Shown: piece after piece, positions 2,220 through 12,971 of the stretch
Layout: every line of letters begins with the position of its first letter
Numbering within the stretch: position 1 is the stretch's first letter
Assembly (NCBI GenBank): GCA_902586695.1
Contig: CACIIL010000008.1
Span: forward strand, 1-47,337
Reading direction: 5' to 3'
Length of the DNA stretch: 47,337 nucleotides
DNA from: an uncultured Alphaproteobacteria bacterium
GTDB lineage: Bacteria > Pseudomonadota > Alphaproteobacteria > HIMB59 > GCA-002718135
The notes under the pieces: model-generated
Databases searched by the model: none
What the model was told of the DNA's origin: nothing
Seen by the model: only the letters and a program-made list of their open reading frames with translations
Position numbers and translations under genes: made by a program

Positions 2220-2318
2220 TTAAAATTTCTCGGCGCACATACGGCGCACTTAGACACCCGGTATTTACATTTTCACGTTTAATTTTTCCTAGAAACCTTA
2301 TACTTTGTATTTAATCAG
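2220..2318. other. Non-coding, between SDR gene and tRNA-Ser fragment 1
   Basis: Apart from the direct-repeat pair at 2232-2251, no gene is visible. The 20 bases or so directly before fragment 1 (CTTATACTTTGTATTTAATC) resemble those before fragments 2 and 3, so the homology between the three copies extends beyond the tRNA part. Confidence 0.5.
2232..2251 (+). repeat. Direct-repeat pair, 11-bp period (candidate integrase arm site 1)
   Basis: GGCGCAC occurs at 2232 and again at 2243, an 11-base period (about one helical turn). The pair lies 87 bases upstream of the first tRNA-Ser fragment. A similar pair lies 89 bases upstream of the second fragment. Tyrosine integrases bind short directly repeated arm sites around their core site, so this is a plausible arm site. 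That role is inference. Confidence 0.45.
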
Positions 2319-2488: not shown

Positions 2489-3553
2489 ATGAATTTTTCA
2501 ATTCCAAAACTAATGAATGCTGTTGTATTAACTGGTCATGGTGGAATGGAGAAACTGGAATATAGATCTGACGTTGAAGTTCCTGCTCCAAAAGATGATG
2601 AAGTGCTTATTAATGTAAAAGCTGCAGGCATTAATAATACCGATATAAATACAAGAATTGGTTGGTATTCAAAATCTTCAGCTGAGAATAGCGATGATGG
2701 TAGTTGGTCAGGAAATCCAATAAACTTTCCTATTATACAAGGAGCAGATATTTGTGGAATTATTGTAGGGGCAGGAAAATCAGTAGATAAAAAAAGAATT
2801 GGAGAGCGTGTTATTGTAAGAACAATGCAAGAAGTTCCTTTTAATCATGATAGCTATTCATCTTGGACAGTAGGATCTGAGTGTAATGGAGGATTTGCAC
2901 AATACACTTCAATTCGTTCTTCTGAAGCTTTTAGTATAATTTCAAATTGGTCAGATGTTGAGCTTGGATCTATTCCTTGTGCTTATTCTACTGCTGAAGG
3001 TTTATTATATCGTTCAAAACTAAAAAATGAAATTGTTTTTATTACAGGAGGTTCTGGAGGAGTTGGGTCAGCTGCTATTCAACTAGCAAAATTACGAGGA
3101 TCAAAAGTAATTGCTCAGTGCTCAGAAAATAAACACAAAGATGTTTTAAGAGTAGGTGCTGATAAAGTAATTGATCGCAATTCTAATATAATTCAAGAGT
3201 TGGGAAAAAATTCAGTCGATGTTGTGATTGATTTAGTAGCAGGTGATCAATGGGGACAGCTTCTAGAAATTTTAAAACCAGAAGGACGTTACTCAACTGC
3301 GGGCGCTATAGCAGGGCCATTAGTTGAATTAGATGTACGAACTTTATATTTAAAGGATCTAACTTTTTATGGATGCACAAAACAACCTAAAGAAGTATTT
3401 TCAAATTTAATTAGTTATATTGAGCAAAATAAAATTTCTCCCTTGGTTGCAAATACTTACCCTTTAAAAGATATTAAAGTAGCACAAGATGATTTTTTAA
3501 GTAAAAAATACACAGGTAAACTTGTGCTTATTCCTCCAAATGTAATTCAATAA
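2489..3553 (+). CDS. MDR-superfamily zinc-less alcohol dehydrogenase / quinone reductase-like protein
   Basis: A medium-chain dehydrogenase/reductase of 354 residues: GroES-like N-terminal domain (about 9-150), then a Rossmann domain with GGSGGVGSAA at 187-196. The catalytic-zinc cysteine is replaced (AGINNTDI, where zinc enzymes have GICGTD) and no four-cysteine structural zinc lobe is visible. It is therefore probably a zinc-independent NADPH:quinone-reductase-like enzyme; the substrate is unknown. A second start, Met9 at 2513 (MNAVVLTGHGG), fits the family N-terminus better; neither start has a clear ribosome binding site. It is the only gene between tRNA-Ser fragments 1 and 2. Confidence 0.85.
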   Translation: MNFSIPKLMNAVVLTGHGGMEKLEYRSDVEVPAPKDDEVLINVKAAGINNTDINTRIGWYSKSSAENSDDGSWSGNPINFPIIQGADICGIIVGAGKSVDKKRIGERVIVRTMQEVPFNHDSYSSWTVGSECNGGFAQYTSIRSSEAFSIISNWSDVELGSIPCAYSTAEGLLYRSKLKNEIVFITGGSGGVGSAAIQLAKLRGSKVIAQCSENKHKDVLRVGADKVIDRNSNIIQELGKNSVDVVIDLVAGDQWGQLLEILKPEGRYSTAGAIAGPLVELDVRTLYLKDLTFYGCTKQPKEVFSNLISYIEQNKISPLVANTYPLKDIKVAQDDFLSKKYTGKLVLIPPNVIQ

Positions 3554-3559
3554 TTATTT

Positions 3560-3578
3560 GGCTACATATAGGCTGCAC
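3560..3578 (+). repeat. Direct-repeat pair, 11-bp period (candidate integrase arm site 3)
   Basis: GGCTACAT at 3560 and GGCTGCAC at 3571 form another pair with an 11-base period. It starts 6 bases after the dehydrogenase stop codon and 89 bases before tRNA-Ser fragment 2. This matches the 87-base spacing between the first pair and fragment 1, which argues against chance. Confidence 0.5.
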
Positions 3579-3648
3579 TTACTGACTTAGTAATTAAAAA
3601 TAAATATTGATTTATCGCTGTATTCCCTATACTTTTTTCTAATCGTAA

Positions 3649-3706
3649 CACTTGGAAAGCGTGTGTAGTAGCAATACTACCGAGGGTTCGAATCCCTCTC
3701 TCTCCG
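3649..3706 (+). repeat. 3' fragment of tRNA-Ser(GGA), att-like copy 2
   Basis: The anticodon loop TTGGAAA (3652-3658), 3' anticodon strand GCGTG, variable arm, T arm and 3' acceptor strand are identical or nearly so to copy 1. The last bases read GCTA instead of GCCA. The 5' anticodon strand is AACAC and does not pair fully with GCGTG, so tRNA identity begins at about the anticodon loop. The variable-arm stem differs from copy 1 at two base pairs and both changes keep pairing (GTAGTA with TACTAC), so the piece came from a different but functional tRNA-Ser gene. Confidence 0.8.
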
Positions 3707-3739
3707 CTACACAAATAGATCTAACTGCTAATTTTTTAT

Positions 3740-3895
3740 TTAATCACTTTCATCTGAAATTGGGTTTCCTGTAACTGCATCCCTTGTATATACAGTAGCG
3801 GCTTTGATATCTCTACCAACACCTTTCACAGAACCTACAATAGTATTACAACCAAATAAAAATAACAACATTATTAAAATAAGAGTTCTAATCAT
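3740..3895 (-). CDS. Entericidin-like small lipoprotein (51 aa)
   Basis: Read from the reverse strand: 51 residues with a hydrophobic signal segment (residues 4-14), a lipobox LFGC with Cys16, then NTIVGSVKGVGRDIKAA, which matches the entericidin A/B pattern of Cys-Asn-Thr-x-x-Gly...Gly-x-Asp-(Ile/Val). Family knowledge: entericidins are tiny lipid-anchored membrane proteins; in Escherichia coli the EcnA/EcnB pair has been described as an antidote/toxin pair. The ATG at 3895 directly follows the stop codon of the sister gene, so the two are translationally coupled. The size is close to EcnB (48 residues). It lies inside the tRNA-fragment-bounded region. Confidence 0.75.
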   Translation of the reverse strand: MIRTLILIMLLFLFGCNTIVGSVKGVGRDIKAATVYTRDAVTGNPISDESD

Positions 3896-4027
3896 TTAAA
3901 CACCTGGCACAATACTTCTAACATCTTCAGCAATTCCTTTTGCAGTTCCAACAATTGTATTGCAGCCGAAATTAAAAGAACAAAATATCAACACAAGACA
4001 TAAGATTAATATTTTTTTCACCATCAT
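3896..4027 (-). CDS. Entericidin-like small lipoprotein (43 aa)
   Basis: Read from the reverse strand: 43 residues starting at tandem ATG codons (4027 or 4024). A Lys-Lys-led hydrophobic stretch leads to a lipobox FNFGC (Cys22), then NTIVGTAKGIAEDVRS, matching its neighbour and the entericidin family. Its stop codon abuts the ATG of the 51-residue gene. Size and order (shorter gene first) resemble ecnA-ecnB, where EcnA is 41 residues. A toxin/antidote role is inference only; entericidin-like proteins in alphaproteobacteria often occur singly. Confidence 0.75.
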   Translation of the reverse strand: MMVKKILILCLVLIFCSFNFGCNTIVGTAKGIAEDVRSIVPGV

Positions 4028-4151
4028 TTATTACATTGTTTTATTCGTTATTGTCTATTAATTGTTAGTAACTAATTGTTCATATATGCTAAGCTTATAA
4101 TTAATAATTAAGATTAAATAATTGTTGTATTCTCTCAATTCTTTTCTAATT

Positions 4152-4209
4152 GTAATGCTTGAAAAGCGTATATTTTGCAATAGTTGGGTGTTTGAAATCT
4201 CTCTTTGCA
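4152..4209 (+). repeat. Decayed tRNA-Ser 3' fragment, att-like copy 3
   Basis: This stretch aligns with copies 1 and 2 with many substitutions: TTGAAAA replaces the loop TTGGAAA, then GCGTATAT, TGCAATAGTT, and TTTGAAATCTCTCTTTGCAA where the T arm and acceptor strand were. The upstream bases (CTAATTGTAATGC) also match the upstream bases of copy 2 (CTAATCGTAACAC). It ends only a few bases before the yejF stop codon, so it marks the boundary between the accessory region and the core chromosome. It looks like the oldest of the three insertions. Confidence 0.55.
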
Positions 4210-4213
4210 ATAT

Positions 4214-5791
4214 TTAAATAACTGAGCGAATTAAATTTTTTGTGTAATCATCAATTGGATTATTAAAAACTAATTCAGTGTTATTATATTCAATTAATTT
4301 TCCTTTCTTGAGAACTATTATTTTATCAGAAACAGATTTGATTACATTCATATCATGGCTTATAAATATATAACTTAGAGAATATTTTTCTTGAAGGTTT
4401 TGAAGTAAATCTAAAATTTGATTTTGAATTGTGATATCTAAAGCTGATGTAGGTTCATCTAAAATAAGAATTTTAGGCTTTAATATTAATGCTCTAGCTA
4501 TTGCAATTCTTTGTCGCTGACCTCCTGAAAATTCATGAGGGTATTTATTATAATCACGATCATAATCCATTCCGGTTTCATTTAAGATATCTTTTAGCAT
4601 TTGTTTTTTTTCAATTTCAGAATATTTAGGAAAATGCACATCAATACCTTCAGTTAATATTTCCTGTACATTCATTCTAGGGCTTAATGATGAATAAGGA
4701 TCTTGAAAAACAATTTGAATATTTTTCCGAATAATTTTTAATTTATTTTTTTTAATTGTATTTAAATTAATATTATCAAATTTTATTTTTCCAGAAGATG
4801 TAATTAGTTTTAAAATAGCTAGGACAAGGGATGTTTTGCCTGAACCAGATTCTCCTACTATTCCTATTGTTTCTTTTTCTCTTAAATTAAAATTTATATC
4901 ATCAATTGCTTTAATGTAATCAACTGTTTTCCTAAAAAGACCTTTTTTAATTGGATACCAAACTTTTAAATTTTCAACTTTTAAAACTTCTAATTTTTTA
5001 TTTTGATTATTTTTTCTGATTTTATTTTGAAAACTAACTAATTGCTTAGTATAATTTTCTTTTGGTTTTTCAAATATTTTAACTTTATCCCCATGTTCTA
5101 TAATTTTACCATCTTTCATTACATAAATATAATCTGCTATTTTATTTACCACTCCTAAGTCATGACTAATAAATAAAATTGACATTTTTCTTTCTTTTTG
5201 AATTTTATTTAATAGTTCTAAAATTTGGAGTTGCACAGTTACATCTAATGCTGTTGTTGGTTCATCAGCAATTAATAAATCTGGATTATTTGCTATGCTC
5301 ATTGCAATCATCACTCTTTGACGTTGCCCCCCAGAAAGTTCATAAGAATAGATATTGGGTCTATCTAATAAATCTTCTAAATTTACTTCTTTTAATAACT
5401 TAAAAACAATTTTATTTAAATCTTTGGTATTTAATGTTTTATGTGTTGTAATAATTTCTTTAATTTGTTTATCAATCGTATGTAGAGGATTCAAACTTGA
5501 CATTGGTTCTTGGAAAATTGTAGTTATTCTATTACCTCTAATTTTTTCTATTTCTTCTAATGGAAGATTTAGTAAATCTTTATTGTTGAAGAAAATATTT
5601 CCTTTATTTATTTTTGCACTATTGGGTAACAATTTTAAAATACTTAAAGCAGTCAGAGTTTTACCAGAACCAGACTCTCCAACAATAGCAACAGTTTTAC
5701 CTTTAGGTATATCTACGTTAATTTCGTTAACTACTTTATTATCTTCTTTAAAACTAATTGTTAAATTTTTTATTGAAACAATATTATCCAT
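4214..5791 (-). CDS. yejF: YejF-type peptide ABC transporter, duplicated ATP-binding protein
   Basis: A fused double ATPase of 525 residues (YejF of E. coli is 529). The first half has Walker A GESGSGKT at 38-45, signature LSGGQRQR and Walker B with DEPTTALD; the second half repeats them (GESGSGKT, FSGGQRQR, DEPTSALD). It powers the YejABE importer, which in enterobacteria takes up oligopeptides and microcin C. It starts 1 base after yejE and is the last gene of the minus-strand operon. The decayed tRNA-Ser fragment follows its stop codon almost at once. Confidence 0.95.
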   Translation of the reverse strand: MDNIVSIKNLTISFKEDNKVVNEINVDIPKGKTVAIVGESGSGKTLTALSILKLLPNSAKINKGNIFFNNKDLLNLPLEEIEKIRGNRITTIFQEPMSSLNPLHTIDKQIKEIITTHKTLNTKDLNKIVFKLLKEVNLEDLLDRPNIYSYELSGGQRQRVMIAMSIANNPDLLIADEPTTALDVTVQLQILELLNKIQKERKMSILFISHDLGVVNKIADYIYVMKDGKIIEHGDKVKIFEKPKENYTKQLVSFQNKIRKNNQNKKLEVLKVENLKVWYPIKKGLFRKTVDYIKAIDDINFNLREKETIGIVGESGSGKTSLVLAILKLITSSGKIKFDNINLNTIKKNKLKIIRKNIQIVFQDPYSSLSPRMNVQEILTEGIDVHFPKYSEIEKKQMLKDILNETGMDYDRDYNKYPHEFSGGQRQRIAIARALILKPKILILDEPTSALDITIQNQILDLLQNLQEKYSLSYIFISHDMNVIKSVSDKIIVLKKGKLIEYNNTELVFNNPIDDYTKNLIRSVI

Positions 5792-5792
5792 A

Positions 5793-6821
5793 CTATCTAA
5801 ATGTCTTTCTGGGATCTAGAGCATCTCTAACTGCTTCACCAATAAAAACTAAAAGCCCAAGCATTAACCCTAATGTAAAGAAGCTTGTTAAACCTAGCCA
5901 AGGTGCTTGTAAATTATTTCGACCTTGATTTACCATTTCACCAAGTGATGCAGATCCTGGCGGCAAACCAAAACCTAAAAAATCTAATCCTGATAAAGCA
6001 GTAACTGAGGCACTTAAACTAAATGGAAGAAAAGTTATTGTTGCAACTGTTGCATTAGGTATCATATGCTTAAAAATTATTTTTGAAGTACTTACCCCAA
6101 GTGCTTTAGCTGCTCTTATATAATCAAAATTTCTAGCTCTTAAAAATTCAGCTCTAACAACTCCTACATAACCCATCCAGCTAAAAAGAAGTAAAATAAT
6201 TAGTAGCCACCAAAAATTTGGTTGTATAACACTAGCAAGTATTATTAAAATATATAATGTAGGTACAGCAGACCATATTTCCATAAATCTTTGAAAAAAC
6301 AAATCTGTTTTTCCTCCAAAATATCCTTGAATTGCACCAGCTGAAACACCGATGATCATAGAAAAAAAAGTTAAAGTAAAGCCAAATAAAATTGATATTC
6401 TAAAGCCATATATTAATCTTGATAAAACATCCCTAGCTTGATCATCAGTTCCAAGCCAATTTTTTCTACTTGGTGGAGAAGGAGCGGGACTATCTATATC
6501 GCGAATTATAGTATTGTATTTATAAGGAATTACTGGCATTATCATCCAACCAGAAGAATTAATTAAGTTTTTTACGAATGGATCTCTGTAATCAGCTTCT
6601 GTTTCAAAATCTCCCCCAAAGGTTGTTTCTGAATAGGACTGAAAAATTGGATAATAAAAATTATTTTCAAATTTTATTAGAAGAGGTTTTTCATTAGCGA
6701 TAAAATCAGCAAATAGCGAGATTATAAATAATATAGAAAAAATCCAAAAAGAATAAAGGCCACGTTTATTTGAAACAAAGTTTTTTAAACGTCTTTTGTT
6801 TAATGCAGATAAATTTTTCAT
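5793..6821 (-). CDS. yejE: YejE-type ABC transporter permease
   Basis: Inner-membrane permease of 342 residues (YejE is 341). An N-terminal cytoplasmic stretch and first span (about 22-42) are followed by a periplasmic insert and the DppC-like transport domain. The EAA loop is visible as [20 protein letters not shown]. The C-terminus [12 protein letters not shown] is typical of the family. It overlaps the end of yejB by 4 bases, so translation is coupled. It forms the channel with YejB. Confidence 0.95.
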
Positions 6822-12869: not shown

Positions 12870-12875
12870 GTAAAT

Positions 12876-12963
12876 GGAAGGTTTGAGGGCGAGTATCTTG
12901 ATAATCCAGTCAGGTCTGAAAAGAAGCAGCTGTACCAAGTCTATTCGGGTCTTATAACCTTCC
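12876..12963 (+). ncRNA. ffs: Small signal recognition particle RNA (4.5S RNA)
   Basis: The ends pair (GGAAGGTT at 12876-12883 with AACCTTCC at 12956-12963), and the apical region carries the SRP core: CAGGTC, a GAAA tetraloop at 12918-12921, and AGAAGCAGC. In E. coli the loop is GGAA within GGTCCGGAAGGAAGCAGC. The RNA binds the Ffh protein and directs membrane proteins to the SecYEG channel. Its position directly before dnaX, ybaB and recR is the usual alphaproteobacterial order. Exact ends may differ by a few bases. Confidence 0.92.
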
Positions 12964-12971
12964 TTTGTAAT

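Follow-up and report, generated by a model that had tools for sequence, protein, structure and literature searches.

Displaced tRNA-Ser(GGA) 3' halves in an array of integrase-free, probably trans-mobilised cassettes of HIMB59 Alphaproteobacteria

Genomic islands inserted into tRNA genes by tyrosine integrases, as catalogued with Islander, have an intact tRNA gene at one end and a same-orientation fragment of it at the other, and anticodon-centred sites are common among them (PMC4383910). For a tandem array, Islander demands one integrase per member, and it reports only four tandems of three or more islands (PMC4383910). CIMEs are att-flanked units that retain attL and attR without integration genes, descend from a conjugative or mobilizable element whose transfer genes were lost, and become stacked at one gene end by tandem accretion (PMC5704250). 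Marine bacteria also carry tRNA-linked cargo in the form of Tycheposons, which are elements of 4-200 kb with a tyrosine recombinase, as far as the definition quoted in PMC10872708 goes. The additive island of Methylopumilus has recurring ends of tRNA-Lys (PMC10872708, PMC5217437), and integron cassette arrays and CALINs consist of small cassettes with the recombinase located elsewhere (PMC11389934). For HIMB59 itself, a study of genomic islands reported that tRNA genes are absent from the borders of its islands (PMC10734472).

The locus described here lies in a window of 47,337 nucleotides (contig CACIIL010000008.1, positions 1 to 47,337, assembly GCA_902586695.1) from an uncultured HIMB59 alphaproteobacterium, and was compared with relatives for which handles such as G061 or L129 are used. 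Like Islander islands, it has a probable anticodon-centred site and, in relatives, an intact tRNA gene plus a same-orientation displaced fragment, the intact end of the window's own array lying beyond the contig; unlike them, its units contain no integrase (0 of 47 cassettes), mostly hold one or two genes and form arrays with up to five displaced halves. Like CIMEs, the cassettes keep both ends (tRNA halves and matching arm repeats) and lack an integrase, but they are short pieces of cargo that recur in diverged genomes, and the ORFs read gave no sign of a conjugative parent. Many units are smaller than 2 kb and none has a recombinase, which places them outside the Tycheposon definition in the form quoted in PMC10872708. 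The likeness to the Methylopumilus island lies in the recurring tRNA ends, and the likeness to integrons and CALINs in the arrays of small cassettes; unlike the integron site, the site here would, to judge by the junctions read, be half of a working tRNA gene accompanied by arm repeats. The array is a variant of tRNA-targeted integration with CIME-like accretion, set apart by its length and by small cassettes that lack an integrase and are reused horizontally. No description of such arrays in this order was found in the open-licence literature searched.

Three displaced 3' halves of tRNA-Ser(GGA) are present on the forward strand of the window: copy 1 (2318-2381), copy 2 (3647-3708) and a decayed copy 3 (approximately 4151-4208). 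The variable arm of copy 1 is composed of ATAGTG (2337-2342), the loop GCAA (2343-2346) and CACTAT (2347-2352), and that of copy 2 of GTAGTA (3665-3670), GCAA (3671-3674) and TACTAC (3675-3680). The original prediction had placed the latter arm at 3664-3681, which is the correct location but includes one extra flanking base on each side, and had stated that the two arms differ by two complete base pairs with pairing kept in both, which was borne out by re-reading. Between the anticodon loop and the 3' end, copies 1 and 2 differ at five positions, four of which are the two sides of two variable-arm base pairs; the chance that four random substitutions on 45 nt produce two complete stem pairs is about 1e-4, considering position alone. 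The fifth difference (2380 C versus 3708 T) is located at the junction of a small deletion beside copy 2; the loop, T arm and acceptor strand had been noted as otherwise nearly identical. Further differences at 2319/3647 and 2322/3650 lie 5' of the anticodon loop and belong to the sequence of the neighbouring cassettes. The variable arm of copy 3 has lost its pairing.

ARAGORN called no tRNA genes in the window, and the resident tRNA-Ser(GGA) could not be read, because the assembly of this genome, which is 75% complete, yielded no intact copy. The assembly does contain tRNA-Ser(GCT) and tRNA-Ser(TGA); the other tRNA-like matches in this genome were rejected as additional tRNA-Ser(GGA) copies, those on C5 and C11 representing these two genes. 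The only Rfam match in the window at the gathering score was a bacterial small SRP RNA (12874-12968).

The halves separate three cassettes. A 12-kb cassette is truncated by the contig edge, and only its right end (1-2317) lies in the window, with cargo on the forward strand consisting of the end of a transport permease gene and genes for a SnoaL-like protein (361-1434) and an SDR dehydrogenase (1452-2219). Its right arm-repeat pair is TCGGCGCACAT ACGGCGCACTT (2230-2251, forward strand); in G001, G061 and G062, where the cassette is complete, both of its ends have this pair. The second unit, also on the forward strand, has a left arm-repeat pair, AGGCTACACAT AGGCTACACTT, at 2426-2447, 45 nt past copy 1 and with a score of 14 of 14, an ORF of the zinc-type alcohol dehydrogenase/quinone oxidoreductase family (2489-3553; Pfam PF00107 and PF08240) and a right pair, TGGCTACATAT AGGCTGCACTT, at 3559-3580, 82 nt ahead of copy 2. 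In the short cassette at 3709-4150 (cassette 2), the minus strand has two small ORFs that are lipoprotein-like (approximately 3740-3895 and 3896-4027); alignment with the cassettes of G002 and G005 showed that about 45 nt are missing at its left end and that its arm repeats have decayed. Relatives of this cassette are located directly behind intact genes with the GTAGTA arm in G002, L106, L139 and L170, with no right-hand half seen in the three L genomes; in G005 a relative follows a GTAGTA half.

The array is bounded by a core gene encoding a yejF-like ABC transporter ATPase (4214-5791, minus strand). In relatives, the order of the locus is an intact tRNA-Ser(GGA) gene, a repeated unit of cassette and 3' half, and the convergent yejF gene, and all cassette junctions examined are tRNA-Ser halves. 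In three genomes with empty sites (G020, G026 and G035) only about 8 nt separate the tRNA gene from the end of the yejF match. The last half in G063, G066, G067 and G074 has the same spacing from yejF as the empty-site tRNA, as does copy 3 in the window, and because of this spacing the last half, copy 3 in the window, is inferred to be the oldest resident one. Some other genomes have 1-2 kb of other sequence between the last half and yejF. A mixed series was read in G061, where five halves follow an intact gene and the arms, that of the intact gene first, run ATAGTG, ATAGTG, GTAGTA, ATAGTG, GTAGTA and AAAGTA/TACTTT, and the series in G063 was much like it. A full-length decayed tRNA-Ser pseudogene with both halves was seen beside yejF at the array end in G066 (L217, oriented 6380-6469).

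The 47 cassettes, defined as the intervals read between halves, range from 0.3 to 13 kb; most are below 4 kb and many have one or two ORFs. Most carry two 11-bp repeats, NGGNNNCACAT NGGNNNCACTT, starting about 45 nt past the left half, and a second pair about 82 nt ahead of the right half, and only 4 of 747 interior windows scored at least 11 of 14. The left and right pairs of a cassette share 5.79 of 8 variable positions, compared with 3.95 +/- 0.27 after shuffling (0 of 10,000 shuffles). These paired repeats look as arm-type integrase sites would be expected to look, and their covariation offers a possible route for matching cassettes with helper integrases by sequence.

The arrangement is most readily explained, and with good probability, by copy 2 being a displaced tRNA-Ser(GGA) 3' half in an array of integrase-less, site-specific cassettes that are mobilised in trans and enter at the anticodon loop. 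In its circular form each cassette would have an attP in which its own 3' half of tRNA-Ser lies between two 11-bp arm-repeat pairs, and a tyrosine integrase acting in trans would exchange strands within the anticodon loop, presumably at TTGGAAA flanked by the half-sites CACGC and GCGTG. The crossover would lie to the right of GTAACGC, because this sequence precedes one class of half and is present in none of the intact genes, and to the left of the variable arm if arm alleles are swapped. The host 5' half and the cassette 3' half would together restore a working tRNA, while the previous 3' half would be displaced to the cassette's distal end, and repeated insertion would leave a row of formerly working 3' halves with the oldest beside yejF. 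Each half would belong with the cassette on its right, because insertion joins the 3' half of the element to the host 5' half and displaces the old one; copy 1 would go with the oxidoreductase cassette, and copy 2 would have arrived with the lipoprotein-like cassette at 3709-4150. The two base-pair differences would be alleles of functional tRNA genes, with pairing constrained as long as a half was in service.

Linkage between halves and cassettes is not strict, since the oxidoreductase cassette follows three different arms and the displaced half in G065 carries ATAGTG although its sister L129 has GTAGTA. Homologous exchange between the 64-bp repeats, or events since lost, must therefore be assumed.

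The cassettes have moved recently and horizontally into separate arrays, because they are nearly identical between genomes whose yejF genes have diverged and because they occupy differing array positions. The first 2,312 bp of the window have 99.6-99.9% identity to the ends of 12-13-kb cassettes in G001, G061 and G062, and the oxidoreductase ORF has 96.0-99.6% identity in seven other genomes, whereas yejF DNA identity, where comparable, is 71-82% overall (81% for G001 and 71% for G062). The same cassette was found at differing array positions, behind differing arms. These data bear on the possibility that the array is a set of immobile remnants of once-autonomous elements that lost their integrases after insertion, in the manner of CIME-like decay and accretion. 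The absence of an integrase from every cassette, the decay of several ends (including those of cassette 2 of the window) and the frequency of integrase remnants beside other tRNA genes are all in keeping with such a history. It is nevertheless unlikely, as many cassettes retain intact, matching ends on both sides, and near-identical integrase-less cassettes at differing array positions among diverged core genes point to movement after the loss of whatever integrase there was. No transfer genes were recognised in a non-systematic look at the cassette ORFs read.

The 3' half was searched for in 60 relatives and in a species-level genome collection, and arm counts were taken from the non-redundant set. 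The GTAGTA/TACTAC arm of copy 2 is present in 55 of 71 intact tRNA-Ser(GGA) genes, the ATAGTG/CACTAT arm of copy 1 in 10 (one with a different loop), and the remaining six carry ATAGTA/TACTAT, a single-step intermediate between the other two. Among 55 scorable fragments, 36 exactly match one of these three arms and three (in G015, G061 and G063) have the fully paired AAAGTA/TACTTT, which is absent from intact genes and is perhaps a formerly working allele. The other fragments are mostly decayed, several with broken pairs, such as ATAGTA/CACTAT in G001 and GAAGTA/TACTAC in G034. The 26 distinct halves, of which two come from the sister family, qualify as tRNA-Ser(GGA) 3' halves, pairing being kept in 96.8% of variable-arm cells and 93.8% of T-arm cells, and over three stems 10 pairs changed on both sides, compared with 3.8 in shuffles. 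Both arms occur in intact genes and the covariation exceeds that of shuffles, for which reasons the compensation arose within functional tRNA genes.

The original prediction was that copy 2, rather than being a duplicate that decayed in place, had been copied from a functional tRNA-Ser of another strain or species and had come with a mobile element. Much of this agrees with the present data: decaying fragments often lose pairing, as in G001, G034 and copy 3, both arms occur in working tRNA-Ser(GGA) genes of the genus, and the half is situated inside a cassette array. The claim that the arm marks a foreign donor fared differently. The compensated pairs do show descent from a working gene and cassettes do cross between diverged genomes, but the search for the GTAGTA-GCAA-TACTAC arm among intact genes, which was meant to reveal a candidate donor, named none, as more intact genes of the genus carry this arm than any other, and it cannot mark a donor for that reason. 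Frequent occurrence of such differences within one population had been given as an observation that would speak against a foreign donor; at the level of the genus it was largely what was found, because 55 of the 71 genes share the copy 2 arm and arms are mixed within single arrays. An origin from a different strain or species, betrayed by the arm, is thus improbable.

The rarer, cassette-linked allele appears to be that of copy 1 rather than that of copy 2, which likewise counts against a foreign source of copy 2. An arm-repeat pair was located directly 3' of the intact gene for 9 of 10 ATAGTG genes and 13 of 53 GTAGTA genes (Fisher p = 1.6e-4, kinship ignored). ATAGTG is scattered at several points of the yejF tree, but the independent pairs, only about four, are too few for a relatedness correction. 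The presence of the arm pair directly behind 9 of 10 ATAGTG genes supports the suggestion that this allele was delivered by cassettes.

No helper integrase was found on the 3' side of tRNA-Ser, and tblastn with 21 recombinases against the tRNA-Ser loci returned a single remnant, which lies 5' of the tRNA gene in G004. In IMG/VR, two patterns for a phage attP with these halves gave zero matches; a looser attP pattern matched 13 contigs, of which 11 carried complete tRNA-Ser(GGA) genes and none had an arm pair beside tRNA sequence, and no relatives of the tRNA-Gly-linked integrase were confirmed. In the genus, genes for tyrosine integrases of about 334 aa immediately follow tRNA-Gly, -Leu, -Arg, -Val and -Gln genes, often with a repeat pair of 11-bp spacing between the tRNA gene and the start codon, and members or remnants of this family were detected in 28 of 101 genomes of the genus. 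In L251 (tRNA-Gly) and L267 (tRNA-Gln) the integrase-side repeat pair is closely similar to the cassette motif. Short N-terminal integrase pieces (approximately 50-120 aa matched) were seen directly behind tRNA-Gly(GCC) in L266, L269, L271, L272, L274, L277 and L278. The nearest helper candidate is found in G004 and G107, where a remnant of this family of about 334 aa adjoins a displaced 5' half of tRNA-Ser; the arms of these remnants, TGATCACAAAT TGATCACACTT and TGATCACACAT TGATCACACTT, resemble the cassette arms AGATCACACAT AGATCACACTT in G070 and L172.

Another candidate is a 352-aa tyrosine recombinase (G000:C25 2321-2902; L208 1880-2938), detected at the PF00589 level in most genomes of the genus, including the window's own, and adjoining cobB in the three loci read. 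Its wide presence and conserved neighbour, together with cassettes that lack integrases, speak for the conceivable reading that this single enzyme moves the cassettes, as in a chromosomal integron. We give this little credence, as arm-type repeats are absent near its gene, the diverse, covarying cassette arms suggest several integrases and not one, and the protein may be a plain chromosome-resolution recombinase. No strong XerC/XerD-like match was found in these incomplete genomes of the genus, as against two in the sister family. A simple tandem duplication of part of the tRNA gene, with later divergence, would account for the direct order of the repeats but is hardly tenable and was rejected, as the spacers are unrelated cassettes common to other genomes, the copies start at the anticodon arm with different flanks, and both empty and filled sites exist.

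Insertion of integrase-less cassettes at the anticodon loop, if it occurs as proposed, would give streamlined uncultured ocean bacteria a compact route for trading single genes across diverged genomes, and such cassettes would be missed by island finders that demand one integrase per island. Seryl-tRNA synthetase reads the variable arm of serine tRNAs. The evolution of an essential tRNA may partly be the doing of mobile DNA, with the variable arm delivered already compensated. A broader scheme can be put forward tentatively, with chances somewhat below even: the genus may maintain an integron-like platform on an essential tRNA, served by several arm-specific integrases acting in trans, with entry from the 3' side at the anticodon loop and of related elements from the 5' side. 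Both halves of the tRNA, with the variable arm and the D arm, would then be replaced repeatedly by mobile DNA, and the array would list, in order, the alleles that had once been in use.

Displaced 5' halves of tRNA-Ser(GGA) were observed in G004 (L059), G023 (L071), G033 (L078), G107 (L284) and G140 (L281). An intact tRNA-Ser(GGA) gene is located downstream of the displaced half in G004, G023 and G033, and the start of an integrase lies just past it in G004, G107 and G140. Elements seem to insert into this tRNA gene on its 5' side as well, bringing a new 5' half. The D arm of intact tRNA-Ser(GGA) genes is of two types, TGA/TCA in most and GCC/GGC in a minority, a difference that is again compensated; in G033 the displaced 5' half has TGA/TCA and the working one GCC/GGC.
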